The notes beneath the pieces were generated by a model. That model was not told where the DNA came from and searched no databases. It saw only the letters and a list, made by a program, of their open reading frames with translations. This document shows, piece after piece, positions 19,123-42,005 of a stretch of 64,000 nt of DNA. The number at the start of each line of letters is the position of its first letter. Within the stretch, counting starts at the first letter, position 1. The stretch comes from Norana najaformis (Eukaryota > Annelida > Clitellata > Crassiclitellata > Hormogastridae). The stretch is taken from positions 3,463,438 through 3,527,437 of the forward strand of contig OZ029920.1 in the NCBI GenBank assembly GCA_964023275.1. Direction: 5' to 3'. The translations under genes and the position numbers were made by a program.

Positions 19123-19124
19123 GT

Positions 19125-19730: not shown

Positions 19731-20100
19731 CTGTAATCGTAATTGTATGCACGAGATTTCTACAGGGCTGAACGAAAGCTAAGTCGTGGGAACAAGCTTA
19801 TTCACAGGCGCTCAGTCAAATCAAAATCGATAGGCAGGAATGGTTCGGTTCCAGGTCAAAACCTACGGGGCCAAATAACGCGGCTTTTGTAGGAGTCACT
19901 TGGCAATGGCTTATACAGTTTCCCCTCATTTAGGTTGTGTTTCTGTTGCTGATTAAATTCTGGATAATTGAGGTTAATATATTAATTAATATATTATTAG
20001 GAACTCGGCTTAAAAAGCAAACTAACTACTCGCTACAGCTGATTGATTTCCTTTTCTAATTTTTGGCTGACTGGGCCGTTGGAGTTAAATTCTGCGGAAA
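19730..20100 (-). mobile_element. LINE 3' end D plus block I 3' part
   Basis: The minus strand carries a LINE 3' end: CCCACGACTTAGC, then AGAAATCTCG, then (TTACGA)n-type tail at 19,728-19,750. D continues through CTGAGCGCCTGTGAATAAG. The remaining 19,865-20,095 aligns with 14,820-15,050. Confidence 0.55.
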
Positions 20101-20290
20101 GAGAAATTGCTTAGCTACGTATTTAAAGATATGATATCTAAATAGGGACAGGAAAAACGATTAAAAGGTGTCTGAAAGTGCTAAACGACAGTTGCGGCCG
20201 TCAGAGTCATTGACGTAGCAGTTCTGCTGACTCAACGTTACTTTAATAAATATATATTTAATAAATATAAATACTTAAATAAATATATAT
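20100..20290 (+). repeat. B site and AT-rich spacer
   Basis: A B site is at about 20,163 (TTAAAAGGTGTCTG) with a core to about 20,215. An AT-rich AAATATATATT spacer follows. Confidence 0.5.
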
Positions 20291-20440
20291 CCATCGATCT
20301 AAAGGTGTCTAAGAACAGCCTAAAAGTAGAATTAATACTCATTTTGTGGCTGCCAGAGTTGTTGACGTCGACTTTACTTTGCATATTAAATAAGGTATAT
20401 CCACCGCATAATCAGATGACTGAATGTGCGTGTGTGTGTG

Positions 20441-20486
<46 letters not shown>

Positions 20487-20900
20487 TTCCTGTTTAAGAC
20501 GCCGTGTCATAACGCAGATAATTAACGTCGTCCTCCTCCTTCATCCTCCCTTGGGACTAGCACTACCAGGCAATGTAGGCCTAATCTCTATTCTAAACAG
20601 TCTTTTGTCATCATTATTTCTTAGAGAAGTCATCATTCTCATCGAATTCGTTTAAATTTTGCGCACAATAAAAGCCAAGTCGTGCGGCCGCGATCTTCAA
20701 CGATTTAGTGTCTGGAGTTAATCATGGACCTACATGTAGGCACAGTCTCTTCATGGAAGCTGTAGAGAATTTGCCATTTCGAGACAGATGTCGTTGCTCT
20801 AACTGTTCGCAGGCGCTCAGTCAAAACAAAATCGATGGGAAGGAAGGGTTCGGTCCTAGGTCAACTCTGCGACTGCCGTTCTCGGGAGGTGCCCCTCCGA
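20290..20900 (+). repeat. Block IV, copy 1: B - (TG)n - A2 - T - D
   Basis: Order: B site 20,303 with core to about 20,372, ACTTTGCATATT, (TG)n at 20,431-20,484, A2 module at about 20,487-20,565, T at 20,570-20,810, D fragment at 20,815-20,895. The whole order repeats at 24,150-24,740. Open frames of 116 and 67 codons lie across it and have no protein features. Confidence 0.7.
20431..20484. repeat. (TG)n microsatellite
   Basis: Near-pure TG run broken by one TT, at the same paralogous position as the tracts at 15.6 and 24.3 kb. Confidence 0.95.
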
Positions 20901-21350
20901 AACCTGGATAAAGGAGGAGTGCGACGTCATCGGCCTTTGATGCCATAAGATGTCATTGAACATTGGAACTAATACTATCAATCGCTAATTATAATTACCA
21001 TTTCCCTCAACATGCTGAGAATCGGTACTAAACTCCACCACACCCTTTTTCCAGGGTATTGCCATTAAAGATAAAGATAAAGGAGGAAGACGAAGGTGAT
21101 TATCATATTTGTTATGACACAGCGTCGTTAAACAGGAACTTCAACGCAACGTAACGCGTGTATGCTGGCATCTTTTCCGCAGCTCACCCCAATATATGTG
21201 TGTATATATTAGAGTATATATAGATAATGCGTTTAGGGTATACATATAATAATGAGGTAAGGAAAACATCATCTTTAAGTACGTAATAGTTTACAAAATA
21301 TTAGACACCTTTAAATCACATTTTCAGGCGCTATAAATAATTCGTTTTTA
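20896..21350 (-). repeat. Reversed A1, A2 and B modules
   Basis: A reversed A1 core with GGATAAAGGAGG is at 20,906-20,960. A reversed A2 core (ATGACACAGCGTCGTTAAAC) ends near 21,133. A reversed B core (GACACCTTTAAATCAC) is at 21,313-21,328, with TATAAATAATTCG after it. Confidence 0.65.
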
Positions 21351-22105
21351 TCGTTGCGGAAACTATCGAGTGTTAAGCGACATCTTGTTGGTGACATCGC
21401 TCTAGACGTCAACCTCACCACACCTTAAGTGGAGACAGCGTATTTTAGTGAAGAGCGGGTAAGTTATTAAATTTTAACGACATCATAAACATCAAACGCC
21501 GTTGCCGTCATTACGAAAATATTTTGCTAGCAATTCTGCAGTTTACTCTAGTTAAAAATGTTGTCGGTAGAGGGGCTCTTTAATGGAAACCTTAATTCAC
21601 CTTAAATCCACTGGCATTGCCCAGCGGCGATTAGTAGTAGTTCCTTAGTTTAACCTCCTACTTTATCCAGGATTTGGAATGGCACTACCCCCAAACAAGC
21701 CAGTGTCGGAGTTGAAAGCAAACTAGTTATTTATATCGATTGAGGAGGCGATTTAAAGGTGTCTAATTGTACCCTATTTTTTTATACAATCTAGTGCTTA
21801 GTGACGTATATCTGAAGTCATTATCGGACCTGGAAGTTTACAATAAAGGACAAGGTGCATGTCAGAAAATCCGTACTTAACGTCTTACCTAGCCCAGTAC
21901 TGTTACTAAACCTATCGATAGAATCTTACAGTTTGACGACATATTATGGCAACACATACTCAACATAAATAAAAATGCGTGGGAGGGCTGCCTACAGCAA
22001 TTTAGGAGTTAATGAACAAACTACATTTTCTCCTATCGACATATTAATTATAGTCATATGCATGGAATCCTGGTGACCATTGTTGGATTAGCGCCCTTGG
22101 ATTCA
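21350..22105 (+). repeat. H-type tail, hairpin-less A copy, B site, G fragment
   Basis: 21,355-21,425 is the GACATCGCTCTAGACGTCAACC core seen after H. 21,637-21,713 is an A module that has lost its hairpin exactly at the base. A B site lies at 21,730-21,765 with TATA spacing of 25. A G fragment is at 21,955-22,090. Confidence 0.6.
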
Positions 22106-22190
22106 GCCTTGGGCGCCTGTGGTTCCCGTGACTTGGCTTTCGTTGGGCTCTGTTGAAATCTTCAGCTTACAATTACGATTACGATTACAT
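22105..22190 (+). mobile_element. LINE 3' end D with (TTACGA)n tail
   Basis: GTTCCCGTGACTTGGCTTTC, then GTTGGGCTCTGTTGAAATC, then a TTACGATTACGATTAC tail (22,170-22,188). It is the extreme 3' end of the LINE whose coding end is at 30,050-30,240. Confidence 0.65.
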
Positions 22191-22480
22191 TTATGGATTG
22201 CATTATCTGCTTCTGTTTCATATCTTTGCTTCTGTATCTCCTTATGCAATAGTCTCATTCTCATTTAAATTCACAACTGACTTGGCCATTGAGGCCAAAA
22301 CGGTTTTGGTTCCCCCTCGATGCGATGCATACTAAACGGACGATGCATCACCAGATTACTGTTCTAGAACCATCGTTCCACACGTCCGATTATATTACTA
22401 TTAGGCCGTATTCCTGTACCCATGCGGAAATATGGGTCCCATTTACGCCCCCACATTAGTATGCTGGCAGGGTAGTTTCA
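22190..22480. other. Unassigned sequence
   Basis: I see no module, repeat family or protein signature here. A short frame at 22,153-22,335 has no recognisable features. Confidence 0.3.
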
Positions 22481-22640
22481 AGGTTACTCATTCATGTCTG
22501 ATCGCTGGTTTCTTATTCATGACGTTTTTATACTTGATGACTTTAACATCATTTGAGCAAGCACAGAAAGCGGCTCTCATTAGGAGCTCTCGAATAGCAT
22601 CGCTCTTCAAATTTTTGATTACAATTACAATTACACACGG
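22480..22640 (+). mobile_element. LINE or SINE 3' end with (ATTACA)n tail
   Basis: GCTCTTCAAATTTTTGATTACAATTACAATTACAC at 22,603-22,637 matches the 3' ends GGCGCTTTATAAATC plus (AATTAC)n of the LINEs at 10.7 and 32.7 kb in layout. Upstream coding is not recognisable. Confidence 0.45.
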
Positions 22641-22682
22641 ATCGTTTTCTCCACTTGTTGTGAGTGTAAGTGTACACGGTGT

Positions 22683-22795
22683 TATATAGCGACCGTATGG
22701 CCTCGACCCTGCCCATTCTTCAATGCAATAATCGGGTGAGATCCTTCACCACCGCTGCCCGTTTGAATGGACGCCACGCCTTTTGTATTAGTATT
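22683..22795 (-). mobile_element. SINE S1 fragment, minus strand
   Basis: TAGCGACCGTATGGCCTCGA, then GGTGAGATCCTTCACCACCG, then GCCCGTTTGAATGGACGCC. It is the 3' body of S1 reversed, with no head. Confidence 0.65.
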
Positions 22796-24145
22796 GCGTG
22801 TCTAACGACATCTTGCGGCAGCCAGGGCCTTTGACGTCGACCTTTCCTTAAGAATCATCGTGGCATGACTAGATATTGAAGGAAATTGTGCATCTTTGTT
22901 TATTTGTTTTCTTGGGGTGTTTCAATAAAAAAGTTTACATCATTTAATTAAAACGAATTGGATTTTTATATATAGCTTCGGAATGAAACAATTTAAAGGT
23001 GTCTAAGCACAAACGAATATTTGTTTTATAAAGCATTGTTTAACGACATCTTGTGGCTGCAAGGGCCGTTGACGCTGACCTTTCGTGATAGAGCGTTTGA
23101 TTTCTCAAGCATTTGTACGAAATTAAGTTAAATAAGCGTCGGCAAACGCGATTTAAAGGTGTCTATGCGCAACATAATATTTGTAAAATGTAAATGTACA
23201 CGGGTTTATATAGCCACCGTTTGGCCTCCACCTTGTCGAGGCCTGGCACTTGGCGCTACCCAACTAAAGCAGTGTCGGAGTTACAACATATAATACCTCG
23301 AGAAACGATTTAAAGGTGTCAATGGGCAACGTTTTATTGATCAGTTAGCTGGCTTAGTATAATTTACTTTAATAAAACCTACTATTGTGAGGCAGCTAAG
23401 GACTCTGACGTCGTCTCCATTTCCCAGTTGACAAAGTTCTCCGCTGACACAAGCCTACAGTAGTAGTTCCTCAGTTTAACGGTAGCTTAAGGCATCAAAT
23501 GCCGTTGCCGTCGCCCTCCTCCTTTATCCAGGCTTGGGACTAGCACTGTCCCCAAACTAGGCAGTGGCAGAGTTACACGAGCCGACACAACGAATACCAC
23601 GAATATATAACACCAGTAAAAGCGATTTAAAGGTGTCTAAGCGTAGCCTAATGTTACTATTAACATCGAAGTTTAAGGACATCTAAAACATGCCAAGTAT
23701 ATGGAAGCCATCCATAGGCACAAATTAAAAATTAGCGGCGAATGAAAAACCCAGTAGCACACATTGGAAAAAGCGATTTAAATATGTCCGCGTCGCCTAT
23801 AATGATTGGCAATACTGTCGAGCGTCTAACGACATCTGGTGGCTGCTATGGTTGGTGACGTCGACTAAACCTAACGATTGGCCTCGCAACAAATGTAGTG
23901 CAGTTAACGCCGGGTGAACCCTAGCTACAGAAGCAGAGTGTTGGTGGCCGACAGAGCCGTTTGCGACAAATGCATGTAACGGGAATACCGCTTCACTGCT
24001 GTTAATACACAGTTCCACTGTTTAACGACATCTTATAGCATCAAAGGCCGTTGCCGTCGCCCTCTTCTTTTATCCGGCCTTAGGACTGGCACTACCCCCG
24101 GACAAGACGTTCTTCGCTGCTGTTGAAATTGACAGCTAAATAGGG
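22795..24145 (+). repeat. Array of seven B sites and two A modules
   Basis: B sites lie at about 22,995, 23,153, 23,310, 23,625 and 23,780 (the last is AAATATGTCC, degraded), most with hairpin cores (22,803; 23,040; 23,823). A modules are at 23,473-23,574 and 24,020-24,110. Spacing is about 150-300 bp, the densest run in the window. A 73-codon minus frame (23,797-24,018) has no family features. Confidence 0.65.
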
Positions 24146-24149
24146 ACGG

Positions 24150-24300
24150 AAAAGCGACTTACTGTAAAGGTGTCTACGAACAGCCAGTAACTAGAATTAA
24201 TACTCAGTGCTTAACGACATCTAGTGGGTGCCAGAGTTTGTTGACGTAGACTTTGCTTTGCATATTGAATAAGACATATCCAACGCATACTCTGACGAAG

Positions 24301-24338
<38 letters not shown>

Positions 24339-24745
24339 TTCTGTTTCACGACTCCGTGTTATAACGCAGATGATTGGCTTCGCCCTCCTCTTTCATCCGG
24401 TCTTAGGACTAGCATCACCATGCTACATAGGCCTAATCTCTCTTCTAAACAGGCTTTTGCCATCATTAATTCTCAAAGATGTCATCTTTCGTCAAAATCC
24501 GGATGTTTTATCCAACGTATAATGAAAAGCCAAGTCTTGCGACCGCGATCTTCAACGATTTTGTGTGTGGAGTTAATCATGGACCTAAACACAATCTCTT
24601 CTCGCTGGAAGCTGTAGAGAACTTGTCATTTTGAGATGGATGTCGTTACTGTAACTGTACACAGGCGCTCAGGCAAAACAAAATCATTAGACAGGAAGGG
24701 TGTGGTTCTTGGTCACTGCCGTTCTCAGGAGGTGCCAGTCGGAAG
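24150..24745 (+). repeat. Block IV, copy 2: B - (TG)n - A2 - T - D
   Basis: Same order as 20,290-20,900: B site 24,168, core to about 24,250, (TG)n 24,305-24,334, A2 core 24,350-24,390, T 24,415-24,660, D to 24,740. The A2 core keeps the inner TTAT/ATGA pairing with a wobble. Confidence 0.7.
24305..24334. repeat. (TG)n microsatellite
   Basis: Pure TG run of about 15 units in the block IV position. Confidence 0.95.
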
Positions 24746-24749
24746 CCCG

Positions 24750-25110
24750 GATAAAGGAGGAGGGCGACGTCAACGGCCCTTGATGCCATAAAATGTTGTT
24801 AAACATTGGAACTACTTGTCTTAACGGCACCTGTTTTGTACGCGATGTGTGGTTGACGTCAACAGCTTAGGCGCCAAAAGATGTAGATAAACATTAGCTA
24901 CTACTACTAATCGCTTGTTATTGCTCAAGAAAAAATCACATGTAAGGTAAGGTTTATGTGAACGACCCTTCAGCCACAAAATACTCTTAAAACTGAACTT
25001 GTTGGACTCTGTTAAGTTTCTACTACTGTTCAGTATTCTAAAACATCGCATTCAGTAATGTTAACAGTTACCCAAACTTATGAAAGGAGAACGAAATTTT
25101 TATACGGTGT
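24750..25110 (-). repeat. Reversed A1 module and weaker cores
   Basis: GGATAAAGGAGG and GACGTCAACGGCC with ATAAAATGTTG (24,750-24,805) form a reversed A1 module. Weaker reversed cores follow at about 24,855-24,895 and 24,945-24,990. Confidence 0.55.
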
Positions 25111-25310
25111 AAAAATGCGATTTTAAAGGTGTCTAAACGTAACCTTATATTCTGTATACTACTTAGCATTATGTTGCTAAATGTAATACAAGTGCGACTC
25201 TGTGGTCTACCGGTAACGCATTTGAACAGTGATCATGCGGTTGGAGTTTCGATTCCGTGTAACGATCATTGGGAAGTAGTTTCAGCACACCATGCCTTGC
25301 GTAAGTTTAC
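25110..25310 (+). mobile_element. B site followed by SINE S2, copy 1
   Basis: A B site (25,125) is followed by CTTATATTCTGTATACTAC and a tRNA-like head: an A-box-like TGGTCTACCGGT at 25,203-25,214 and a B-box-like TTTCGATTCC at 25,247-25,256. The sequence matches 25,575-25,770 and diverges after about 25,265. Confidence 0.6.
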
Positions 25311-25379
25311 ATTAGCAGAAAGTAACCGCTTGGTATTCCAGCCAGCTCGAGGTTTTCACCATAACGGAACCAACGATTT

Positions 25380-25500
25380 AGTAGTAGTTCCGCAGTTTAA
25401 CGGCAGCTTATGGCATCAAAGGCCGTTGCCGTCGCCGTCCTCCTTTTTCCAGGCTTGAGACTGGCACCACCCTCCAACAAGGCAGTGGCTGAGTTTAACC
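25380..25500 (+). repeat. A module (GCAGC subtype)
   Basis: TAGTAGTTCCGCAGTTTAAC, core with GCCGTCG arm, CCTCCTTTTTCCAGG and GGCAGTGGCTGAGTTT. Nearly complete. Confidence 0.75.
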
Positions 25501-25559
25501 AACGATTAAGCGAAATTAAGGTTATTAGTTACACAAATGCCTTACGAGAACGAAGAATT

Positions 25560-25915
25560 TATAACATGTTAAAGTGTGATTTAAAGGTGTCTAAACGTAA
25601 TCTTATATTCTGTATACTACTTAGCAATATTTTGCTAATTGTAATACAAGTGCGACTCTGGGGTCTACCGGTAACGCATTTGATCAATGATCTTGCGTTT
25701 GCAGGTTCGATTCCGTATAACGACCCTGGGCAAGTTGTTTGCGGACACCGTGACTCTGTCACCAAGCAGTAGAATTTAGTACCTGCAACGGCAAGTCCTG
25801 CGATGCACTGGCCCCGTGTCCAGGACATTGGGATTCGTCCATTGCCAGATCAAGGCCCTAAAGAAAATCAGATAAGCTCCCATACGTCTCACTTGTGAGA
25901 TATGGGGCACACTTT
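25560..25915 (+). mobile_element. B site followed by SINE S2, copy 2
   Basis: A B site is at 25,580. The S2 head has an A-box-like GGGTCTACCGGT (25,661-25,672) and a textbook B box GGTTCGATTCC (25,704-25,714). The body runs through GACTCTGTCACCAAGCAGTAG, TACCTGCAACGGCAAGTCC and CCCCGTGTCCAGGAC to about 25,910. No stable tRNA cloverleaf forms by eye, so this is a SINE and not a tRNA gene. Confidence 0.7.
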
Positions 25916-26925
25916 ACTTTTCAATTAACTGTAAAAAAACTCTTTTTGGCAAGAAACGTTCGCAATATTGTAATAGAAATGAATCTAGCAGTAGTAGTTC
26001 CCACCGTTGGCTGCCAGGGCCGTTGATGTCGACCTCTTCATTTATCCAGTCTTAGGACTGGCACTGCCCGACTACAGACAATGGCGGAGTTTAATTTTCT
26101 AGATCGTTGAAAATACGATTTAAAGGTGTCTAAACAGAGTCTAATATTTTGTATCCTATTTAATGTTTAATTACATCTATTGGCGGCCAGGGTCGTTTAG
26201 ATCGACTTTGCATTACCTCACACGAAATGCCTAGTTTTTGAAAGAAAATGCAGAGTGTAATCAAATATATTGCACAACGTAACAGTTACCACTATCTAAT
26301 ACAGCTGATTATTTCAGTCTTTAACGACATCTGGTGGCTATCATAGCCGTTGACGTCGACCTTGCTTTACCTTGCCCCTCATCCTCAACCGGTATTATGA
26401 CAACTCGACATCGATAGTAGTAGTATTTTCCAATGCTTAACGACATCTTATGGCAGCAACTGCCGCTGACGTCAATTGGAAATTTTTTTACATTTCTGGC
26501 TGTATTAAATTCTTTTCAGTAACAACCGATTTGTTTAGGGAAGTCATCTGCAATCCATGGTTGTAGTTTCAACGACATCTTATGTCATCAAAGGTGTTGG
26601 GTGGATTGGAAAAAATTACAAAGGTTTAAAGGCGTCCAAGGGTAGCCATATATTTTGTAGGCTATCGAGTATTGAACGACATCTTGACGTTAACCTTACA
26701 ATCATATATTACCGCGTGGGGCGCTAGATTTCGAGTTCCAATGTTGAACGACCTCTTATGGCATCAAGGGCCGTAGGCGTCGCCCTCCTCCTTTATCCAG
26801 GCTTGGGACAGGCACTACCTGATTTCACAGATTTTACCAAGATGTTATTTACCAAACTAAAATGTTCTATATTTTTACGACTTATTTTAGCTTAACCGGT
26901 TTTTGATGACTGTTTCAGTTTTTGG
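25915..26925 (+). repeat. A and B modules
   Basis: A core with an A tail lies at about 26,000-26,085. A B site is at 26,120 and cores are near 26,165, 26,320, 26,440 and 26,570. A B variant AAAGGCGTCC is at about 26,625 and an A module at 26,745-26,825. No gene is seen. Confidence 0.6.
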
Positions 26926-27120
26926 GGGGTTTTGACAGGTTTTTAAAGGTGTCCAAGGAACAATTCAATTATCGACACAACAATAGTACAAAAATTTGAA
27001 AATACGAACGAAAAAACAAGTAAGAAAACATGCTCAGCAAAACTAAAAATGTGTGGGAGGGCTGAATTCGGCAATAAAGGAGTTTATAAAATACCTGCAT
27101 TCTCTACTAATATTATGCGT
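26925..27120 (+). repeat. Family G fragment
   Basis: TTTTAAAGGTGTCCAAGG, ACAACAATAGTACAAA and TGTGTGGGAGGGCTG are in the G order. Confidence 0.6.
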
Positions 27121-27800
27121 GGTTTTCATTCACTCATCCGACGTTAATCCAATATCATGTTAAAGACAGTTGTTACTTTTTATAATTATTGTATTATTCA
27201 ATCTTTAACAACATCACATTGGTTCCAATGTTTTTGAAGTCGATCTTACAGCTTAACCTTTAGCGAACATGAACCAATTCGAAAAATAGTTCAATGAAGA
27301 GCGTCAAATTCTTTCTTTGCGCCATCTGTTGCCTATATTGTGCATAATAGTTAGGTCGTAATCTAACAGTTTCAGTTTCGATACAGTGTTCTACAGCGAC
27401 AGTTTCCGTAGGCTAAACACGCCTATGATTTTTGTCATGGTCTTCGCAATGTTAAAGAATCTTTTTCTGCCCTATTTTCACTTTCCGACATTTTTAACGA
27501 CCTTTCCATTCTTTATTTGATTTAGTAGTAATACAACAGCTTTTCTTTTTTCTTGACAATTTCTGTTGACAAGTCCTCTCCAAAACCGGACTGTGGCAAG
27601 AAACAATTATTATATCATTTCCCACAAAACCACGTTTGTTGGCGCCACAAGGTACCTACATTTGCCATCAGCGGAATGATGCGGCCTCGCTAACTCCAAT
27701 GAATATTACTGTATGGGTTAGCATAAGACTTACGATGAATTTAAGCAGTTTGCAGTCTAACAGTTTAGTAGCAGATGTAGAAATGAACTGAACAGAGTGT
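27120..27800 (+). repeat. Family F repeat, copy 1
   Basis: 27,290-27,800 aligns with 51,060-51,570 and 56,345-56,835. Shared phrases: AGTTTCAGTTTCGATACA, TTCTACAGCGACAGTTT, AATTTCTGTTGACAAGTCC and ACTTACGATGAATTTAA. It is about 500 bp with no coding signature. 27,120-27,290 holds only a degraded core near 27,205. Confidence 0.65.
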
Positions 27801-28265
27801 GTTATTTTTTGTAGTGTCGAGAGTCTTTGACATCGACCACACATTTTATACTCATAAAAAAATGATCTAGCGATGTCAAGAAACATGGGTTTTATAAAGC
27901 TGGGGAAGAACGATTTAAAGGTGTCTAAGCGTACCCTTACGTTTTTTATTAGTATCAAGTCTTTAACAACATCCTATGACCGCCAGGGCCATTTGACGTC
28001 AAACACATATTACTTTAGACTAGGCGCTTTCACTTGCTGCTACCGAAATCAAGATGTAGTGATTCTGGTAGTAATTCTAATGTTCAACGACATCTTACGG
28101 CGTCAAAGGCCGTTGACGTCGTCTTTTTCCTTTATACAGTATCAGGACAGCGAAGCAATTGCAGCAACGATTGCAAACGAGAGATTTATAGAGTCTGAAA
28201 ATGCGATTTAAAGGTGTCTAATAGTTTGTGCTCTATTGATGTTTAAATATGTCTTCCTTACCTCA
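27800..28265 (+). repeat. B modules and an A core
   Basis: A B site with TTTATAA at 27,891 and AAAGG at 27,917 (26 bp). A B-type core is at about 27,960-28,000, an A core with the full inner stem ACGGC/GCCGT at about 28,085-28,120, and a B site at 28,208. Confidence 0.6.
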
Positions 28266-28640
28266 TATATATCAGCGTCGTTTAACAGAAACTAAATATT
28301 GATGTACAGATTTTGTATTGCGAATGGGAATGGCTAGATCCTATGTTAATCCATACACCATAAATAATATTTATTTGTTGATTTGATTAGGAGTAATATC
28401 ATCAGCTGTGTAAGATGCATTTCAGTGAACCGTGAAAACATCGGCTTTCGCCGTTAATTCATGAAGCGTTACTGTTGAGTTTTGAAAAATATGGGTAGCA
28501 TAAGGATATCCTGCTTCGTGATAAAATCATATGATGCGATGGTTCGTATCTCTTATGGCTGCCAGGGCCATTGACGTCCACTTGACCTCACTTTACATGA
28601 AGACCTTTGACTAGAAGATGAAACAGTAGCGATTAGTAGT
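28265..28640 (+). repeat. Block VI repeat, copy 1
   Basis: Aligns with 44,955-45,315: GATGTACAGATTTTGTAT, ACACCATAAATAATATTTAT, TTGATTTGATTAGGAGTAAT and GGATATCCTGCTTCGTGATA. Confidence 0.6.
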
Positions 28641-28786
28641 TCCTTCAGTTTAACGACAGCAATAAGGCCGTTGCCGTCGCCATCCTCCTTTATCGAGGCT
28701 TGGGACTTGCACTACCCCCAAACAAGGCAGGGGCGAATTTGCACTAGATATTGAGTAATAATTAGAGCTTGGATGAAAACGGGACA

Positions 28787-28821
28787 TTTATAGCCCCTAA
28801 AAGTGCGATTTAAAGGTGTGT
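28787..28821 (+). promoter_or_regulatory. B-type TATA plus AAAGGTGTG, 25-bp spacing
   Basis: TTTATAG starts at 28,787 and AAAGGTGT at 28,812. Same spacing at 42,590/42,615, 45,883/45,908, 51,824/51,849, 52,354/52,379, 9,640/9,665 and 60,182/60,207. Spacing of 26 occurs at 27,891/27,917, 29,503/29,529 and 56,876/56,902. Confidence 0.45.
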
Positions 28822-28969
28822 TAACGTAGTCAAATACTTTAGATCCCATGTTTCCTGACATCTTCTGGCTACCAGGGTGGTCGACTTATACCATCCCTTG
28901 CTAGCGGATCAATAACATTACAAAGAACACAAATGAGTTATTAGCTATTGTAGTAGTACCAATGTTTAA

Positions 28970-29003
28970 CGACATCTTATGGCATCAAAGGCCGTTGACG
29001 TCG
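28970..29003 (+). repeat. Reference copy of the 34-nt hairpin core
   Basis: CGACATC (28,970-28,976) pairs with GACGTCG (28,997-29,003) except for one A-C mismatch. Inside, ATGGC pairs with GCCGT (one T-G wobble) around the 7-nt loop ATCAAAG. Copies elsewhere have ACGGC instead of ATGGC, restoring the pair. Confidence 0.6.
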
Positions 29004-30044
29004 CCCTCCTCCTTCGTCCAGGCTTGGGACTGGCACCACCAGAAGACGGCATTGGCGCAGTTATTAACCCGTTGAATGATAGCGTTTGAAAACACGATTT
29101 CAAGGTGTCTCACCGTAGCCCAGGTCGCTATATAAAAGCGTGTACATATGCATTCAGTTTATGTTTAACGACACAGTGTCATAAACAGATGAGTTGCGTC
29201 GCACTCCTGCCTTATCCAGGCTTCGCACTGGCAATACACGAGTACGGCAGTGGCGTAGTTATTGCTAGCAGATGTAGTGCCGAACTAGTCTATAATTTTT
29301 GTAGTATCTGATGTCTTGTGCTTGCCAATACCGTTGACATAGACCACACGTTGTAATTGGAATAAGAGTAGTTCTACGTAGTGGTAGTTCCTCAGTTTAA
29401 CGACAGCTTATGACATCAAAGGCCGTTGCCGTAGCCCTCCTCCTTTATCCAGCCTTGGGACTGGCACTACCCCTGGTTCTACGTATTAAGCGAAACATGG
29501 CTTTTATAAAGATGGGAAAGAACGATTTAAAGGTGTCTGAGGGTAACCTAATATTTTTATGGCTGCACGAGCTTTTGACGAGTATTATTTCAAAGTAGCA
29601 CGATTAATGCTGCTAGCGACTGAACGAAAACGAGAGTATTTATAGCACCTAAAGATGCGATTTAATGGTGTCTTAACTTACTCTAATAATTTGTAGACTA
29701 CTGAGTGTGTAATGACGTACACCTTAACTGATTAGCGGATCGAGAAGTTTCCAATCGGAATTAGCATCTCAGCAAATTCCATTCATAAAGTCACAGTTTT
29801 CTAGTGGCCGTTTTTAGTTTTCCGTGATTTTGATGGCCTATTTTTGCAACATGTATGTAATAGTCAACCATCATCGAAGCCATGTTCAGGGCCAAGTCAA
29901 TTGCGTAGAATCCAAGAAAATCAAGTGGTGGACAAAGATGGATCCGACCTTGCTCGACTATAAACAAATATTAAAAAATTTAAGCTTCATTCTAAATTAG
30001 CACTGTTGACGGTTTACAGATATTTTAAGAGAAACTTACATTGT

Positions 30045-30405
30045 GTTAATTACATTTTTGTTCATTCTGTCCACCCACCGTCTTCCTACCCATCCTATGA
30101 ACTCATCTTCTTGCAACAACTGAAATCACAACACCCATTTTCCATATCCTGTCCTCATTCCGCCTCTTCTTCCTCTTACGGTTTCGCCGCTCCAATTCTA
30201 AACACCATCCACCGTCGCCATCTGACTGTCTACCATTCATGATACGTGGATTTTGACCTGGAACCGAATCTGGTCTTACTCGCTAATCGATTCTGTTTTG
30301 ACTTAGCACCTGGGAATTAGCTGCTTTCCGCTGTAATTATTTGTAATAAATAATAAATAAGCTTACTTTGGGTGCTGCGAAAATCTCTTGATCATGATTA
30401 CGATT
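30045..30405 (+). mobile_element. LINE 3' part: coding end plus 3' UTR (D) and tail
   Basis: 30,050-30,235 corresponds to the coding end of the LINE at 18,765-19,122 (CATCCACCGTCGCCATCTGACTG shared at the edge). It continues into D: TGACCTGGAACCGAATC, CGATTCTGTTTTGACTTAGC, and a GATTACGATTAAG end near 30,405. A small AATAAATAAT expansion sits in D. This copy and 34,214-34,462 show that D is the 3' UTR of that LINE. Confidence 0.65.
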
Positions 30406-31440
30406 AAGACGTCGTCTCTGCCTTTCTTTTTACCCATTTACTGTTTCACTCTCTATATAATCACTAGAAACTAAATATAGCCTTTATAATATACCATCTG
30501 AAAAAAATATAAATTCCTTCTATGTCATATATCGCGTCGTTAAAGTCGTTAAATAAATACTAGGACACCGTCAGGTTATCTCAAATTGTCGCACACCTTT
30601 ATTTCGCTTTCTTCGTAGCTATATGCTCACAATTTTTATTTTAATAGCTGTCGAGTATTCATATAATGCGGGTGGATTTAAGGTAGTGTGAGATTCGACG
30701 TAAATGGCTCTGATAGCCACCAGATGTCGTTAAAGACACATAACCATCTGCATTAGATACCGTTAAGTGTTGGTCGTCTGCGGTATAGGCCTATTTCGTT
30801 TATACTCAGTTACCTCCGCCAATTTTAGGATAAAGTAAGGTAAGGTTGACGTCAACAGCCCTGGTAGCCACACTATATATTTCTCGTTCGCGTTAACTCG
30901 CAAGATTAAGTCAAGTTATACAACACCTTTACTTCGCTTTCTTTGAAGCTATTTACATTTCATTTCGTTTAATCGATGTACATTGGGTTTCCATATACTG
31001 TAAAATCGATGTTAACGTCTCTTATGCGGTAAGATCTCATTAAACACCGAATAATACTAATAATAATACTGAATACAAAAAATAATCGGCTGTATTCGGA
31101 TATCTTTAAAACGTGTTGCCCTTCTGCTATAAATTTCAGTTACACTCATTTAACTCACCCTCTGCTAGTAGGCAGGAGGTGCTAGTCCAAAGCCTGGAAA
31201 AAGGGGAAGATAGTGATATTCATCTTTGTTATGGCACAGAGTCGTTAAACACAGACAACAAATCGTGGAATAATTTCATACAGACAGAAATTGTTTGCAT
31301 GGCTTGGGTGATGGTTGCTAATAAAACTGATAATAAAGAGATAAAGGAGGAAGACGAAGACGGTAATCACATTTGTTACGATAGAGCGTCGTTAAACATC
31401 AAATACACACACTGGGTGGTAGGCTAGTAACGTCAACGCA
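30405..31440 (-). repeat. Block III, copy 2: reversed A/B modules
   Basis: From 30,480 it aligns in order with 2,200-3,080. Reversed B cores lie near 30,595 and 30,930, a hairpin core at about 30,700-30,735 with a 5-bp inner stem TGGCT/AGCCA, and reversed A2 modules end near 31,250 and 31,397. Confidence 0.7.
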
Positions 31441-31920
31441 ACGTTACACGCGTATGCTGGCATCTTTCCCGCAGCTCACAGATATATGTCCGAAAGTTAG
31501 CGATTGTAGTTCCAGTGTTTAACGACAGCTTATGGCATCAAAGGCCGTTGCCGTCGCCCTCCTCCTTTATCCAGGCTTGGGACTGGCACTACCCCCAAAC
31601 AATGCACTGGCGGAGTTAGTTAGCGATTGAACGAAACAAGTCATTTAATAGCGTTTTGGAAGCATGATTTTAAGGTGTCTAAACACAGCCTAATATTTTG
31701 ATATTGTGCATGCTGTTTGGTGTTTGCCGACATTTTGCAGTTGCAAGGGTTTTTTAGATATATCTTAACTCATCAAAGGATCGAGATGTTTACAGAGGTG
31801 CATGTCAGTGAATCAACATCGAAGATGTCTAGTGAATTTAATGATCTGTATAGTTTTAATAGGCAACAACCATCCACACAGTTCCTCCCGGCATGGGGTT
31901 ACTGAATGACTGGTGGGTAT
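31440..31920 (+). repeat. A module and B site
   Basis: A complete A module (GACAGC/GCCGTCG) is at 31,511-31,617. A B site follows at about 31,672 (TTTTAAGGTGTCT). 31,720-31,910 is the GTGCATGTCA section found after several B sites. Confidence 0.65.
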
Positions 31921-32257
31921 TTGCAGCGTGACGACTCTGTGTTAATAACGAGGAATATACTGTATACCTTCGCCACTCTCCTTTATAAAGGTTCCATACT
32001 GACACCACCCGACTAAAGGCAGGGCCGGAGTTAACACCAGTGAGAGTAGTACAGGCTTAGTTAGCTCATTGGTTAAAGCGTACGTCAAGGCGCCTTTGCG
32101 AGTTTTGATGCCGGTTCGCGTCCCGGTTGTGGCTTACTTCAGAGATTTTAATTTCAGGCTAGCACTTCCGTATATGGGGATCTTAAATGGCGTGGCGCCC
32201 ATTCAAACGGGCAGCGATGGTGAAGGATTCCACCAGGTTAATTCATTAATTCAGAAT
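31920..32257 (+). mobile_element. A3 module followed by SINE S1, best head
   Basis: The A3 module is at about 31,930-32,033. S1 starts near 32,052. Its head has an A-box-like TTAGCTCATTGGTTAAAG (32,061-32,078) and a B-box-like GGTTCGCGTCC (32,113-32,123), 52 bp apart, which fits an internal pol III promoter. The body ends near 32,257, where family L begins. Confidence 0.75.
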
Positions 32258-32261
32258 GTTC

Positions 32262-32600
32262 TAGCTGCCTATGCAAATAAACGGCGTTGATATACACAGA
32301 ACATTGCATTACGGGCCTGTAGTTGGCTAGGCACATAACCTAATTATAACATATGCGATATGCATGTGCATATGCCACATACCCGGAGTTGTCTTCTAAT
32401 CAAATGTCCTATATTAAACGGGATCGGCCAGCTTCTAGGAGAGGTCTTTCAGCCAGAAAACCAGCTTCTATAGACATAAGCGAATTATGCACGTATCAGT
32501 AATGCACTTAAGACTATATATGAAACCATGATTGAGAGGTGACTTTACTGAGACCTGCAAAATTTCACATGGATTCGAGAATAAAGACGAGCAAACAGAG
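32262..32600 (+). mobile_element. LTR-like family L, 3' portion
   Basis: It aligns with 47,270-47,600: ACGGGATCGGCCAGCTTC, CATAAGCGAATTATGCAC, ACTATATATGAAACC, TTACTGAGACCTGCAAA and AATAAAGACGAGCAAAC. Confidence 0.6.
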
Positions 32601-32717
32601 TGATATCTTATTTGATTGTTATTTTAGTTAAAGCTCTTAAAACCCGCGCGAGTTCAGTAAATCTGAACGCACTTAAAACCCGCGCAAGTTCAGTAAATCT
32701 GAATCCGAGGTGCGGTT
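32600..32717 (+). repeat. Family H start with local tandem duplication
   Basis: The phrase AAAACCCGCGCAAGTTCAG with AAATCTGAA occurs twice in a row (about 32,638-32,665 and 32,678-32,705), which is not the case in other H copies. The LINE at 32,718 interrupts H here. Confidence 0.65.
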
Positions 32718-33566
32718 GTGTTGTAATTGTAATTGTAATCTGACATTTATAAAGCGCCACTTCAAGAATAGACTCATCAGAAGCGTTCCCGACCCGAACC
32801 AGTGAGACCACTGGCAAATAATACAGACTTCAGGCGCTTGCGAAACTGCGGAAGAGACAAACTGAGGAATATTAGCCGAAGCTCTCGGGAAAGGCGATTC
32901 GAGCTATTGGGTCCAGCATAGGCAAAGCTTCTAGACTGCGCTGTAGCAGTGCGCATACGAGGGACAGTCAGAAGTCCAAGGGAGGCCGACCGGAGAGAAC
33001 CAAGGAGACCGAAATGCAGAAGTCCCTAAGATAAGATGGAGCCGAGCCAACAAGACAATTACGCATGAGCGTTAGGATCTTGAACTGGATACGCTGCTGA
33101 ATGGGAAGCCAGTGTAGAGTGTCCCGTATAAAGGAAGTTATATGGCCATACCTGGGGACGCCTCCAATAAGACGGGCAGGAGCATAGAGAACAGATTGAA
33201 GCTTGGAAATATTGGCAAGTGAGAGTCCAGCAAAGATAGCGTTACCAAAGTCCACCCTAGTGCAGATAAGGGCATGAATTAGAGTAGTAACGGCCTGAAA
33301 GGAGAGGGAGCGGCGGATGGTACGAAGCTGACGAAGGTGGTAAAAGCATGAGCGGGAGACACTGTTAACATGATCGGTCAAGGAGAGTTCCCGGTCCAGA
33401 ACAACCCCAAGATCACGGACTTTGGAACAGAATAGAATGTCTGGAAACCTCTGGCGTAAGGATGATGAACCAATCTTTGCCAGCTGAGCACGACCACCAA
33501 GCCAGATGAACTGGGTCTTAGCAGAGTTCAGTCGGAGGCGATTAGATGACATCCAGAGACCAAGGG
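32718..33566 (-). mobile_element. 5'-truncated LINE (CR1/L2-like) nested in family H
   Basis: The minus-strand 3' end GGCGCTTTATAAATG plus (ATTACA)n is at 32,718-32,760. Family H stops at GGTGCGGTTGTG before it and resumes with GCTGTCTAGGCCGTTGACG after 33,566, which matches the uninterrupted H copy near 48,050-48,075. No clear target duplication is visible. Confidence 0.8.
32755..33552 (-). pseudogene. LINE reverse-transcriptase C-terminal region, frameshifted
   Basis: A 194-codon frame from 33,552 carries SSNRLRLNSAKTQFIWLG, VRDLGVVLDRELSLTDHV, TLHWLPIQQRIQFKILTL and SAPSYLRDFC, all standard blocks after the RT catalytic core in CR1/L2-like LINEs. Near 32,985 a frameshift leads to TVPRMRTATAQSRSFAYAGP and FRKRLKSVLFASG. 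The YxDD core is missing through 5' truncation. It is the same family as 10,291-10,728. Confidence 0.85.
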
Positions 33567-33905
33567 CTGTCTAGGCCGTTGACGTCGATCTTGTCATAGC
33601 AAATGTTAGACGGTAAATCTATCGATGGATTCTAACAGTTTAGCGACATCTTTTGGCATCAACGGCCGTTTACGTCAAATAGATAAGTTCAGTTTGCATA
33701 AAAGCAACATTATTATAACGTTATTGAAGAGGGATTTAAAGGTGTCTAAACGTAATCTAATATTTCGTTTACTATCGAGTGTTTGACGACATCTTGTGAT
33801 TGACATCGCTGTTGAACTGAACCTCAGTATGCATTATGTGAATTACTATGTACCGATGTATCGTAATTAATAGCATGGATGGTCGTAATTAATAGCATGG
33901 ATGGT
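33566..33905 (+). repeat. Family H continuation with B site
   Basis: A core GGCCGTTGACGTCGATC, then an A-like core near 33,640-33,675, then a B site at 33,736 and the GACATCGCTGTTGA core. A perfect repeat CGTAATTAATAGCATGGATG occurs twice at 33,860-33,903. Confidence 0.6.
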
Positions 33906-34135
33906 GAAGGAGCTTTTCAGTGGGAACTTCACTGTCTAAAAGGTGTCCAAGGACCATTTCAGCCAAGGATAAATACTAGTACGAATTTGTAAATACGGGC
34001 GCATAAATGCTTAATAGTATAACATTCGTAGCATTAATATAAATGTGTGGGAAGGTTTACTTTGTCAATTGAGGGGTTAATAAGTGCGCTGGTGTGTAGG
34101 TTAACAGACCAATATGAGTCACGTTATAATTGAAT
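33905..34135 (+). repeat. Family G fragment
   Basis: CTAAAAGGTGTCCAAGG, ACTAGTACGAATTTGTAAAT, GAGGGGTTAATAAGTGCGC in G order. Confidence 0.6.
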
Positions 34136-34465
34136 AATACCAGATCAGTCGTAATTCCCCCGTTTAACGACATCTTATGTCATCAAAGGCCTTTGACGCC
34201 GCCCTCATCTTTTATCGTAATTGTAGTCGTAATTCACAGATTTCTACAGCGCCCAACGAAAGCCGCGCCGTGGGGTCCAGCTTATTCACAGGCGCTCAGT
34301 CAAAACAAAATCGATAGGCAAACAGGGGTTCGGTTCCACGTCAAGATGCAAAAGTCAGGCAGTGAGACAGCGTGGCAGCTACGATGGGTGATGTTTGGGA
34401 TTGGAGCGGAGAGGGAGATAAGAGGAAGAAGGGGTGTCAGAGTACGATCTGTGAAAGAGGAAGGC
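34135..34465 (-). mobile_element. A core (plus) and LINE 3' part with D (minus)
   Basis: A plus-strand A core is at 34,160-34,205. From 34,214 the minus strand reads as the LINE 3' end: tail CGTAATTGTAGTCG-like at 34,214-34,232, D to 34,345, then the coding end to about 34,462. A 163-codon plus frame crosses these joined repeats and is not a gene. Confidence 0.6.
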
Positions 34466-35085
34466 TTGGAACTGGCACTGCCCGACTACGACAGTGGCGG
34501 AGTTGCAGTTATTGAGAATCGTCGAAACCTTTTAGTATCTCTCTTTAAAAAGGTGTGCAGTCAGCAGTTTTGTTGTGTAAATCGAATCCCAAATGTCTCC
34601 TCCACAAACTGCACCAAATAATGTTTTCTAATCTGTAATAAAAGTATCTAACGCTCGCAAAGTTACAACTGAAATGACCGCAGTAATAGTTCTCTTCGTT
34701 GTATAACGACATCTTATGGCTGACAGGGCCGTTGATATCGACCAAGTATTACATCTACGGACCGAGATCGTTGATACTACCCATTGAAGAAAACGGGTTA
34801 TTCATACAGTCTGAAAATGCTATTTAAAGGTGTGTAAACGTACCCAAATATTTTGTATGCTGTTGCATGTTTACTGACACCTTCTGGCTACCAGGGTAGT
34901 AGACTTACACCATAGATCTATCAATACCGGATCAAAACTGTTTAGAAAGGACAAGTGGCATATCAGGAAATCCGTACTTAATGTTGGAGTTTCTTGTTTC
35001 CATTAATTTTGAAATATGTTTGCTGTATACTTTTAATATCAACTATCTTCCAAACCAAGCATAGAATTTCTACTACGGTTCGAAA
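34465..35085 (+). repeat. A tail, B module and spacer
   Basis: An A tail (GGAACTGGCACTGCCCGACT) is at 34,467-34,503. 34,505-34,745 is shared with 48,490-48,730, including ATCGAATCCCAAATGTCTCC. A B site is at 34,825. The remainder is the GACAAGTGGCATATCAG-type section. Confidence 0.6.
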
Positions 35086-35460
35086 GCCAAGAGGGGATGA
35101 TTAAAGAGACGAATTATTGTAGAGATCCGAAAAGTGTTTGAGAAATAAGTATACCGGTTACGATAGTTTGAGCAAAGGTGCACAATTATAAATTGTAGAA
35201 AATACGTCGCATGCAAAGTAACGTCTATGTTATTATCACTAATTTACAGCCATAGTTCGGCAACTTTTAATCGCGTTACCCCACATAATAATTGTATTCC
35301 TCAAGTTCGTTCAATAGCTAGATTCTACTGAAGACTGTTTGCAATTAGGGACCGTTCATAAAGGACGCCCGCAAAAATGATCTACTTTTGGTCGCTTGCT
35401 CCCCTTGTCCTCATTAACATCCCATTCCCATTTTCGAACGTTCCCACTCAAACGTAGCAC
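35085..35460 (+). repeat. Block II repeat, copy 2
   Basis: Aligns with 11,640-12,015 as described there. Confidence 0.65.
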
Positions 35461-36040
35461 TGGGGTGAGCGGCTTTAAGATACTGCCTCGTACCGTAATT
35501 AGGCACCGTAGTTGAAATCAACGTAATACAGATGTCTGCTGCGTCCTTTGCTATACTCGATCAATATGTGTATCGGAAAATATGTATAATCGACCATTTA
35601 ACCGAGTAATCGGATGATTACTCGACGATTTTGCTTAGCAACAACCTTCGACTGATAACTTATGCATTATAACAGTGGCGCTATGGAAGCTCTCGATTTT
35701 AATTACGAAGAATGTGACGCTTATAATCATCTACGCTATGACACAGCGTCGTTTAACAGAAGCTACCCGTAGTTGATATTATTTCTTTCTACAGTCGATG
35801 TTAATACTCAATACTTTTACAACCGTGGCAGCTACTAGATGTCGCTAAGTACTGAATAATACTAAAGTATTAACTTTATCCTGCTCTGTTTAGACACCTT
35901 TAAATCGCTTTCTCCAGTCCTATATAATGCTCATATTCGTTCGTTTAATAATTGATCACGGCAGTGTCCGTCAGTTCATATCGAATACAAATATAGTATT
36001 GCGGTTTGTAATAGTAATCGTGATCTCAAAAGTCACAGGA
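35460..36040 (-). repeat. Reversed A2 and B modules
   Basis: A reversed A2 core with perfect inner TCAT/ATGA pairing ends at about 35,757. A reversed B core (GACACCTTTAAATCGC) is at about 35,892-35,907 with a TATATAATGC stretch in the TATA position. 35,460-35,710 is not recognised. Confidence 0.55.
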
Positions 36041-36420
36041 GCTACTCAAATGCTAATGTCAAGTCAGAGGGTTGTCTGGCGATACAATCCCTCCAACAGC
36101 TTCGATCGTTGGACCAATTGCTGGCCACCAGCTGTGGAATGATGGGATCCATTGTGACCAATTAAACGTGGCTGTTTGGGTTCCACTAGGCAACCTAAAA
36201 GATCCAGTTGCCGAGAGACCAGAGCGAGGAGAGGCTCGATCGACCGAGAAGTATTCGTCAATCTTAATTGCTATAGTAACCACTGGAAATCAGAATCACC
36301 TATATTGTGCAGAGATAAAAGCCGCAAACGAAGGAAAAGTCCTCTGCGTCAAGATCAAATCAAGTCGGTTTTAGACTCGGGAATTACAACGGTTTTAAGT
36401 GATAAACTCCGATAAAGCAG
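36040..36420. other. Unidentified single-copy-looking segment
   Basis: It is richer in G and C than its neighbours and carries none of the window's repeats. Overlapping frames are open on both strands: plus 36,072-36,374 (100 codons) and minus 36,059-36,283 (74 codons). I recognise no domain in any of them. It could be a fragment of a transposon, an exon or non-coding. Confidence 0.3.
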
Positions 36421-36950
36421 TTATATTGACTCGATTTTAATAAAAAGAAATAATCGTGCAAGGCAACGCAAAGCCAATAGCCCTTACCAGCGTATGAGAT
36501 TTTTTGGACACCGGATGAGTCAATTAAGACGACTGAGTTTTACGGTAAGGTAAAAATTTGTCTGATCAATAATGAATCGCAGTTAAAACCTTTTAAAGGT
36601 GCTGGTAAGATGGAGTCGACGTCAGCCATAATTTGCTGCTCAACAATTTATATTTCTATGTATAGTCCGCTCTTTCTGGACACCTTTAACTCGTCCAATC
36701 GCTAATTGCAACTACGCCACTGCTTGTTTGCGGGTAGTGTCAGTTCCGAGACTGGATAAAGGAGGAAGGCGACGTGAACGGTCTTTGATGCCGTAAGATG
36801 TCGTTAAACTGAGGAACTACAATCGCTAGGAATGTTTCCCGGTATTACAAGGTCCACATCAACGGCTCTGGCAGCAATAAGATGTAATTAAACACTAAGT
36901 GATGTAGAAAATATTAGACAATGCTAGCACACCTTTATCTCTCATGTTTG
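36420..36950 (-). repeat. Reversed B and A modules
   Basis: Reversed B cores are near 36,676 (GGACACCTTTAACTCG) and 36,925. A nearly complete reversed A module (inner stem with both G-C pairs, ACGGT/GCCGT) occupies about 36,715-36,830. A plus-like TTTTAAAGGTGCTGG is near 36,590. Confidence 0.6.
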
Positions 36951-38078
36951 GGTGCTATAAAAAACCTAATTCTCGGAAATTAGCATATGAGTTCTGAAAA
37001 CCGTGCTTTATTTCCATGTAAAAATAATATGACAGTTTAAGACTATAATGTTATGAAAAGGAAAATATCATGAAATAGATTCTTTCCATTCGTTATGTTT
37101 ATCTTGAAGGCTTCAATATTATCATGAAAATAAATAATAATAAGATTTTGTAAATAATATTAAGACTTAATTCATATGCAGTGAAAACATAGCAACATAG
37201 AAACAAGATCTGTAAAAGAGTAAATCGAAATCGATACAGATAACTGAACGTCCATAATACATTGGCCGCATTCAACAGCTTTACAGTCTCATATAGAATT
37301 AATATACAATTCTTGACATTTTAAATATATTACTTATTTTAAAATAACTTAATTAATAAAAGACCTATGGAAATCGATGTAGTATATTGTTACTTTATTA
37401 AAATATATATTTTGGAATAAAACGACAATGAATTTTTAAGAAATATCTAGGAGAGGTGTAAATTTTAAACATCCAAACGTATTATCTTTGTAACAGTTGT
37501 ATCATCGGAATTTCTAATTGTCATCGAATAACCACCACGTGTAAATGTCGGATAAACAGCTTAATATTGATATGTAAATAAGCTCATGTTGTCTGTTCAC
37601 TTTTAACCCCACCTACCCTCCCTTCCTCACTAGTAAGACCGCTATTAGACATTCGTTTCAAACAATCGATATTAGGTCAGCACTCTGACCCAAACACCTC
37701 CCTAGGATGTTCAATGCACCGATCAAAAACATACATGCACGCGCACAAACAAACACTCTAACAAACACACAAACAAACACAATAATTACTTGTTACCATA
37801 ACACATAATAACCATACCTCTTTTCAAATAGTCATCAGATTAGTTATTAGCCTTAATTTACAAATTCACCTGATATTAAATAAAATTCTCCACTTGTAGT
37901 CATTGTAGGTACAGCAATAAATTCACAAATCACTGATAAGTCGGTCCATAGATTCGTCCCTAACTTAGACTTCAATAATCATCATCACCTTTCGCCAACA
38001 CCCTTTGTATTTAGTCTGCGTTTAATCTATTTCCAAAGGCCTATCCTTAACTTATGTATATGCCCGAATAATTTATAT

Positions 38079-38136
<58 letters not shown>

Positions 38137-38330
38137 TATATAAGTTTTCGTATATGAATAAAGCCTATTCGGAAAAGAAAAATCACTTGTATTAAATATA
38201 TAGTTTAAACTATATTGTTAATAAAGTTTTTATCAGCAAATGAATATAGTGCCCAATTTGTGTTGTGAATAACTATGATGTACATATCATGTAACTCAAA
38301 ACTTTGTAGATGTCTGTAAATATTTGTAAT
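36950..38330. other. AT-rich stretch without modules
   Basis: No A or B core, SINE, LINE or LTR signature is visible over about 1.4 kb. It holds a CA/AAAC-rich tract (37,745-37,785) and (TA)n at 38,068-38,142. No open frame of interest is present. Confidence 0.5.
38068..38142. repeat. (TA)n microsatellite, interrupted
   Basis: TA run with an AA and a GT interruption. Confidence 0.95.
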
Positions 38331-41865: not shown

Positions 41866-42005
41866 CTGGCCATTTCGGCTCTTTTGTAGCCGTCAGGCTC
41901 TTTTGTGGCCATTTAAGGCTCTTTTGTGGCCATCAGGCTCTTTTGTGGCCATCAGGCTCTTTTGTGGCCATCTGGTTTTTTGTCATCAGGCTCTTTTGGA
42001 TTCAC
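41866..42005 (+). repeat. Minisatellite of about 20 bp (CAGGCTCTTTTGTGGCCAT)
   Basis: Six to seven imperfect copies, the best at about 41,905-41,975. Read in frame it gives a repeated FCGHQALLWPSG-like peptide, which is a by-product. A related CTTGTGGCCATGAAAAGA occurs once each at 12,085 and 38,370 on the other strand, a possible source. Confidence 0.85.

Follow-up and report, generated by a model that had tools for sequence, protein, structure and literature searches.

Animal retrozymes, as two accounts describe them (PMC7229834, PMC7761336), are small, non-coding, non-LTR elements that carry a self-cleaving hammerhead motif, reach very many copies, occur as tandem monomers and are flanked by target duplications of more than 4 nt. 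Ribozyme-bearing tandem repeats are presumed, in the first account, to be the source form of retrozyme circles (PMC7229834). According to a review, promoters seem to be absent from the retrozymes of plants and metazoans, and a promoter in the LTR of a plant retrozyme is reported in a later paper (PMC9695139). A truncated twister at the 5′ end of RTE retrotransposons has been announced as 'in preparation' (PMC7761336). Nematode type-I piRNA genes are short and lie clustered in large numbers; the motif upstream of them derives from snRNA genes, and the start of the short RNA varies (PMC6436959, PMC11262695). Their loci are described in the former paper as lacking a TATA box.

Here we analyse a window of 64,000 nucleotides of contig OZ029920.1 from the annelid Norana najaformis, in which a 34-nt hairpin recurs in units of three classes, A, B and C. 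The meaning of this repeated hairpin is found on the minus strand and outside the stretch to which the original prediction assigned it; the twister-like part, promoters, retroposed copies and variable segment described below are beyond the scope of that prediction. The A element shares with the type-P1 twister (RF03160) nearly all core letters, the pairing of P2, P3 and P4 and the position of the U-A cut site; it differs in scoring below the gathering cut-off, in its incomplete P1 and in the constant hairpin that directly follows. With animal retrozymes it has in common its small size, the lack of coding capacity, a self-cleaving type of motif, very many copies, target duplications and, at one locus, tandem monomers. 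In contrast to them, its motif is twister-like, its copies were read mostly as single ones, and its source units have a PSE and a TATA box, unlike retrozymes as the review presents them. The hammerhead ribozyme was absent from Rfam searches of the window, the scanned fetched loci and the tandem locus L066; thus, the A element is not a retrozyme by definition. It resembles the RTE twister in placing a truncated twister at the 5′ end of a retroelement (PMC7761336), and differs in being a non-coding element of ~110 nt with no attached RTE reading frame seen. Like the nematode genes, the units are short and clustered in large numbers, with a snRNA-derived motif upstream and a short RNA whose start varies. 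They differ in having a TATA box, which was not found at the nematode loci described (PMC6436959), and a constant 34-nt hairpin downstream; given the TATA box, the units are not piRNA genes of the nematode type. The A, B and C units may work partly like a twister, a retrozyme and a nematode piRNA gene. Searches of the open literature turned up neither a SINE-like element headed by a twister nor hypervariable genes of SNAPc type outside nematodes.

Results

The hairpin core and its strand

A core of exactly 34 nt with 7-nt arms and three paired states at arm position 6 had been described from copies of the subtypes A1a, A1b and A2, all three of which are present where they had been placed. They belong to the following array and hairpins:

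991..63941, minus strand: array, with 89 PSE-like sites and 143 hairpins
28970..29003, minus strand: A1a hairpin, predicted RNA sense on minus (core profile searches, folding)
31523..31556, minus strand: A1b hairpin (core profile searches)
43806..43839, minus strand: A2 hairpin, with a weak match to the whole A element upstream (36.2 bits)
26320..26360, minus strand: B-type hairpin core, within the query stretch of the genome search for B units

In profile searches the window yielded 142 cores at E≤1, 122 of them on the plus strand, in the orientation first written. At E≤0.01 with the database size fixed, the window holds 114 cores (98 on plus) and twenty random 10-kb stretches of the same genome (200 kb) hold 3. 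Window hairpins at E≤0.05 number 143, and the predicted RNA sense is minus in 119 of them. The core set comprised 174 matches from the window and the fetched loci L002-L050; 15 with indels and 13 partial ones were left out, which leaves 146 that are full length and ungapped at 34 nt. The three paired states are confirmed in these cores, where arm pair 6 (6-29) is T-A in 102, G-C in 12, C-G in 5 and non-Watson-Crick in 27. A core has on average 8.0 of 12 Watson-Crick pairs, a figure that drops to 1.1-2.1 if the partner is shifted by 1-2 nt, and many of the departures from pairing are one-sided pair losses. The 7-nt arms of A1 hold on the minus strand, where all seven positions pair, one as G.U; on the plus strand they pair at 6 of 7 positions only, with an A.C mismatch at arm position 5 that is the G.U pair of the minus strand.

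Folding of both strands, as had been proposed, gave one shape shared by the four subtype consensuses on minus (7 bp, a 3/4-nt internal loop, 3 bp and a 7-nt loop) and differing shapes on plus. Stability does not decide the strand, since the mean folding energies are about equal (plus -8.0, minus -7.9 kcal/mol; minus more stable in 89 of 146 cores). From its sequence, the RNA sense of the hairpin is most likely the minus strand. An RNA hairpin of this kind is a DNA palindrome too, with nearly the same energy on either strand, and could in principle be a DNA feature such as a recombination or protein site. We regard this as very improbable: one common fold is obtained on the minus strand only, the hairpin tends to stand at certain distances from same-strand promoters and directly after a ribozyme-like part, and it is found within units copied through RNA (see below).

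The original prediction read the paired states as selection for a fold and called for a covariation analysis against a phylogenetic null. For this, 64 of 131 A rows with more than 15 gaps were dropped and the remaining 67 elements were compared, using a maximum-likelihood tree, with 400 simulated null alignments. The ten minus-strand hairpin pairs give a summed APC-G of 58.8, against 0.2 in the null (sd 14.7; p=0.0025, 1 of 400), and the best single pair, arm position 6, has an E of ~18 over all column pairs. When 128 unique cores from all classes are used, the excess is less marked (sum 68.7 vs. 2.7 in the null, sd 29.3, maximum 86.4) and the best of twelve pairs has an E of 3.1, so that no single pair is significant. 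Selection for the fold is thus supported for the helix as a whole, whose summed pairs exceed the null, but not for any pair individually. The nearly invariant twister stems show no significant covariation in the same 67 elements (P2 p 0.17, P3 0.47, P4 0.10).

A twister-like part in the A element

The A-type hairpin is the 3′ part of an element of ~110 nt whose 5′ part resembles the type-P1 twister ribozyme. The main features are:

28950..29062, minus strand: ~110-nt A element, AACTGCGCC...hairpin...TTAAACATTGG...TAC, the portion to which many of the best dispersed copies align
29000..29067, minus strand: twister-P1-like part 5′ of the A1a hairpin (39.4 bits, E 4.1e-5; gathering score 67.2)
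31552..31622, minus strand: twister-P1-like part of the A1b unit (56.9 bits, E 4.1e-10)
62655..62722, minus strand: top-scoring twister-P1 match in the window (61 bits, E 2.6e-11)

A lax Rfam search of the window returned 31 RF03160 matches at E≤5 and 27 at E≤0.02, and a hairpin directly adjoins on the right side in 29 of the former and 26 of the latter. Nothing in the window reaches an Rfam gathering score, and the twister appears in the lax search only: against a score of 67.2 for RF03160, the best matches have 61 bits in the window, 58.5 in the fetched loci and 49.1 in L066. Scores below this cut-off are why we do not file the A element as a confirmed twister. In the alignments, P2, P3, P4 and the catalytic letters are kept, with some core letters differing in L066, and nearly all core letters are present in four aligned loci, L002 having UGAAGG for UAAAGG. 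Helix P1 is incomplete, with 2 or 3 of 4 pairs in four alignments; inspected by eye, the junctions of the L066 tandem array allow a 3-bp P1 (GUC/GAC). A twister match is present in 14 of the 15 fetched loci that were scanned, the exception being L035, a 5′-truncated copy with hairpin and tail only. Upstream of the 143 window hairpins the twister part of the A element is present in 44 and missing in 99. Self-cleavage of the corresponding RNA is what we infer from this resemblance.

Locus L066 (contig C13, 3,825,600-3,826,850) consists of 7.6 head-to-tail monomers of 124 bp with 96% matches, each with a twister match and a hairpin. A TAC tail follows the last monomer only, and TATA-like sequence is found at the left end.

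Dispersed A copies

In this genome of 608 Mb and 17 contigs, the 41 matches listed for the A1a stretch (itself included; best 40 of 738 candidates scored) lie on all contigs but C10. The aligned dispersed copies begin at AACTCCGCC, where a twister would cut, although the search profile itself starts at AACTCCGCC. They end in TTAAACATTGGAACTAC, and after nine matches that were not full length had been dropped, 26 of the 32 full copies have a short TAC-type tail. Direct repeats at the ends score at least 9 in 17 of these 32 copies and in 10 of 992 swapped pairs; the target duplications are 10-13 nt long, examples being TACATTACATTA and AATCACACACTA. The features of a SINE-like retroposon are thus present: target-site duplications, a simple-repeat 3′ tail and a constant 5′ end. 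In the window, ARAGORN called no tRNA. From the three full A copies present in 195.6 kb of random DNA we estimate about 9,000 genome-wide, with a wide error.

Where the copies begin bears on whether the ribozyme or the promoter defines their 5′ end. The first A of AACTCC follows the U-A cut site named in a review, and 7 of the 17 clear duplications abut AACTCC exactly, with 3 leaving 1 nt and 7 leaving 2-16 nt. Since no more than a few nt separate the predicted start from the ribozyme cut, the copies could instead begin at a start site: the start predicted from TATA, at the 30 nt of U6 genes, falls 3-5 nt before AACTCC, and the start predicted from the U6 PSE distance ~2 nt after it. On such a reading the twister-like part would be a relic that no longer cuts, in keeping with the incomplete P1 of the single copies. 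Set against this are the twister core letters, nearly all of which are kept in the aligned copies, and the 7 duplications that end exactly at the A after the cut site; we hold this explanation to be rather unlikely.

A second question is whether the hairpin is conserved solely as a 3′ tail shared with a partner LINE. The TAC-type tails, and the truncation of L035 to hairpin and tail, fit such a history, to which we would give a limited but real chance. However, incidental inspection showed no LINE with the hairpin at its 3′ end, and B units elsewhere carry hairpin and promoter together. The nearest reverse-transcriptase frame ends beside an A unit and has its own AATA-rich end; its nearness therefore looks accidental, and it was rejected as the partner LINE on the ground that the association is probably fortuitous. 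This frame and the other protein remains of the window, which matches RVT_1, the hAT dimerisation region and, just below the cut-off, DUF659, are:

58602-59792, minus strand: LINE reverse-transcriptase frame of 396 aa, best full-length relative 71% identical
54127-55677, plus strand: remains of a hAT-type transposase (DUF659, dimerisation region)

Given these matches and a genome of 608 Mb in 17 contigs, a bacterial reading of the window was rejected. Among prokaryote genome contigs the reverse-transcriptase frame has no relative, and a 19-base pattern of the hairpin core had no match in viral contigs. The CpG observed/expected ratio is 1.01 in the window and 0.35-1.53 in random stretches.

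An upstream PSE-like motif

The motif ACACCTTTAAATCGC, often preceded by GG.TACGTTTAG, has 67 window sites at up to 2 mismatches (53 minus, 14 plus), compared with 0.1 for shuffled motifs. In 60 of 88 sites a TATA box lies downstream, its first base 27-28 nt from that of the motif. Allowing up to 3 mismatches raises the number of PSE-like sites to 89 (66 minus, 23 plus), 76 of them with TATA; 195.6 kb of random DNA has 2, one with TATA. Examples are:

29094..29108, minus strand: PSE-like motif of the A1a unit, 2 mismatches, degenerate TATA (TATCATT)
31664..31678, minus strand: PSE-like motif of the A1b unit, followed by TATA-like TATTAAA
57706..57720, minus strand: PSE-like motif of an A unit with TATA, twister match at 57597-57664, hairpin 121 nt downstream
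61719..61733, minus strand: PSE-like motif of a C-type unit without twister, hairpin at 61616-61649, 84 nt downstream

A hairpin follows within 165 nt downstream of 52 of the 89 sites (22% by chance) and a twister match within 40-110 nt of 15 (2.2% by chance). The distance from motif to hairpin is often 121-123 nt where a twister is present and mostly ~70-110 nt where it is not.

Read by eye, the 5 best of 14 U6 matches in this genome have ACCTTTATT, ACCCTTATT, ACCTTAATT or ACCTTCTTT at about -61 and TATA at -30, and the U2 genes read (6 of the 32 matches) have a ACCTTTATT-like motif near -56 with no evident TATA. The window itself has no U snRNA match in Rfam searches at gathering or lax settings. 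Because the window motif resembles these upstream motifs, it is most likely, judged by sequence, the PSE of this genome, although the window PSE matrix is significant in the U6 element of only 2 of the 5 U6 genes. The units thus share with SNAPc genes such as U6 a PSE core and a TATA box upstream of a short predicted RNA; they differ in a PSE-TATA spacing 5-6 nt shorter (27-28 nt in the window vs. 33 nt in U6) and in that T-run terminators after the hairpins are not enriched (0.31 vs. 0.34 in the background). With a PSE and TATA as in U6 genes, SNAPc probably starts transcription ~57 nt after the PSE start; transcription itself and the polymerase are predictions.

Two pairs of promoter-like units on the plus strand, 12585/38976 and 11839/35260, have similar bodies and no recognised hairpin, which raises the question of whether this promoter also drives additional classes of RNA.

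Many window units are decayed, which counts against our preferred explanation and would suit a graveyard of an old SINE-like repeat that inherited its PSE/TATA block and whose array and hairpin are functionless now. Consistent with this, window copies show indels and one-sided pair losses, the twister part of the A element is missing from 94 of 126 window hairpins of the A/B models, and stretches of several hundred bases with several units are duplicated. Single dispersed A copies argue the other way: they start at AACTCC, with a target duplication and without the promoter block, so the block did not travel with the copies. Among A copies of the fetched loci, only L025 (C17) and L028 (C11) have it, and the idea that A promoters are limited to C8 was rejected on account of these two. 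B units elsewhere, in loci chosen by their hairpin, keep PSE, TATA and hairpin with the segment between them randomised. We consider a mere graveyard possible but doubtful.

B and C units

Classes B and C have the promoter and the hairpin, other 5′ segments and no twister. A C-type query gave 47 matches (40 of 60 candidates scored); the five listed that reach past the core to the query end all lie on C8 at 3.46-3.53 Mb, and among the matches listed those on other contigs cover the hairpin core only. For a B-type query (best 40 of 214 candidates), the best matches are on C8 at 3.45-3.57 Mb, with more on several other contigs. Two candidate restrictions were rejected in view of the B units: that promoters are confined to C8, as the first five matches (all on C8) had implied, since B promoters occur on several contigs, and that dispersal is limited to twister units, since B units are dispersed as well.

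Reading of 13 B loci outside C8 gave, in 12 of them, 13 B units with the motif at up to 4 mismatches; L072 had no such unit. TATA stands at 27-28 nt in 12 of the 13 units and the hairpin is nearly constant, a constancy that is in part selected, the loci having been chosen by hairpin match; promoter and middle segment played no part in that choice. Pairwise scores per length are 0.88 for the hairpin, 0.79 for the 3′ part and 0.59 for the PSE block, and 0.14 for the segment from the predicted start to the hairpin, vs. 0.09 when shuffled. In positional profiles, identity in B and C-like units drops to ~0.25 from ~+57 to just before the hairpin (the C-like set, n=13, includes some A-type units); A units have 0.7-0.9 over the last 36 nt upstream of it.

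Three B paralogues on contig C11 (the second unit of L067, L076 and L077) have one differing base over 131 nt flanking the segment (67 before and 64 after), and their ~22-nt segments at the predicted transcript start are unrelated; L067 and L077 differ at 12 of 22 positions there. An L077 query gave 91 matches (best 40 of 2147 candidates scored), and among the matches listed the 15 near-full ones at 86% or more, including itself, all lie on C11 at 0.99-2.61 Mb. In the first 50 of these matches, the other 41 being outside the count, 31 of 31 clusters lie within 5.5 Mb of a contig end (31% expected), a limit set after the positions were seen and clusters that are not independent; among best matches the same holds for 29 of 33 clusters of the B query and 18 of 40 of the A element. 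One 19-nt variable segment, searched in the genome with up to 1 mismatch, matches only itself, so that near-perfect guide targets are unsupported.

On contig C12, at 22,862,273-22,863,230, match positions alone show six nearly full B units that repeat head to tail every 158 bp, with a partial match on either side. A tRNA-like SINE head, recognised by eye and not called by ARAGORN, and a repeat with CCCATTCAAACGGGCAG are found at 32060-32250 on the plus strand of the window; in L067, L068 and L071 the repeat also lies beside or between B units.

A broader and decidedly tentative reading, to which we attach low probability, is that the units form a dispersed, distally clustered superfamily of SNAPc-driven small-RNA genes, with a constant promoter, a hypervariable RNA 5′ end of ~20-30 nt and a constant 3′ hairpin. 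This would be a guide-like or piRNA-precursor-like repertoire outside nematodes, in one branch of which the twister replaced the variable segment and the unit then became mobile.

Discussion

We favour, as a likely explanation, that the hairpin is the 3′ domain of small noncoding RNAs transcribed from SNAPc-type promoters on the minus strand, the A units among them being twister-headed and retroposed. Our confidence is lowered because, of the 17 clear duplications, no more than 7 end exactly at the cut site, and because P1 is partly, though not entirely, missing. The hairpin would then probably be a real RNA fold in a twister-headed retroposon derived from an array of SNAPc-type small-RNA genes. 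The promoter motif with its spacing, the likeness to the twister, the 5′ ends, duplications and tails, and the common minus-strand fold were computed directly.

In the proposed mechanism, a source gene with a PSE and a TATA box at fixed, U6-like spacing would give a small noncoding RNA from the minus strand. In A units this RNA would start with the twister-like ribozyme, which would cut itself and so remove a leader of a few bases; the product would read AACUCCGCC...hairpin-UUAAAC. The reverse transcriptase of a LINE would insert copies of this ~110-nt RNA at thousands of sites, each with a target duplication and a TAC-type tail, and hairpin plus tail would be its probable landing site; the hairpin may thus act as a 3′-end or reverse-transcriptase recognition structure. 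B and C units share this promoter and hairpin but have different 5′ segments.

Should the A units work in this way, they are a minimal retroposon whose 5′ end is set by a self-cutting RNA and whose promoter-bearing source genes are visible beside it. The variable segment of the B units would matter more. Gene copies that are nearly identical except for ~22 nt at the predicted start of the transcript call for some process of diversification and for a role in target recognition.
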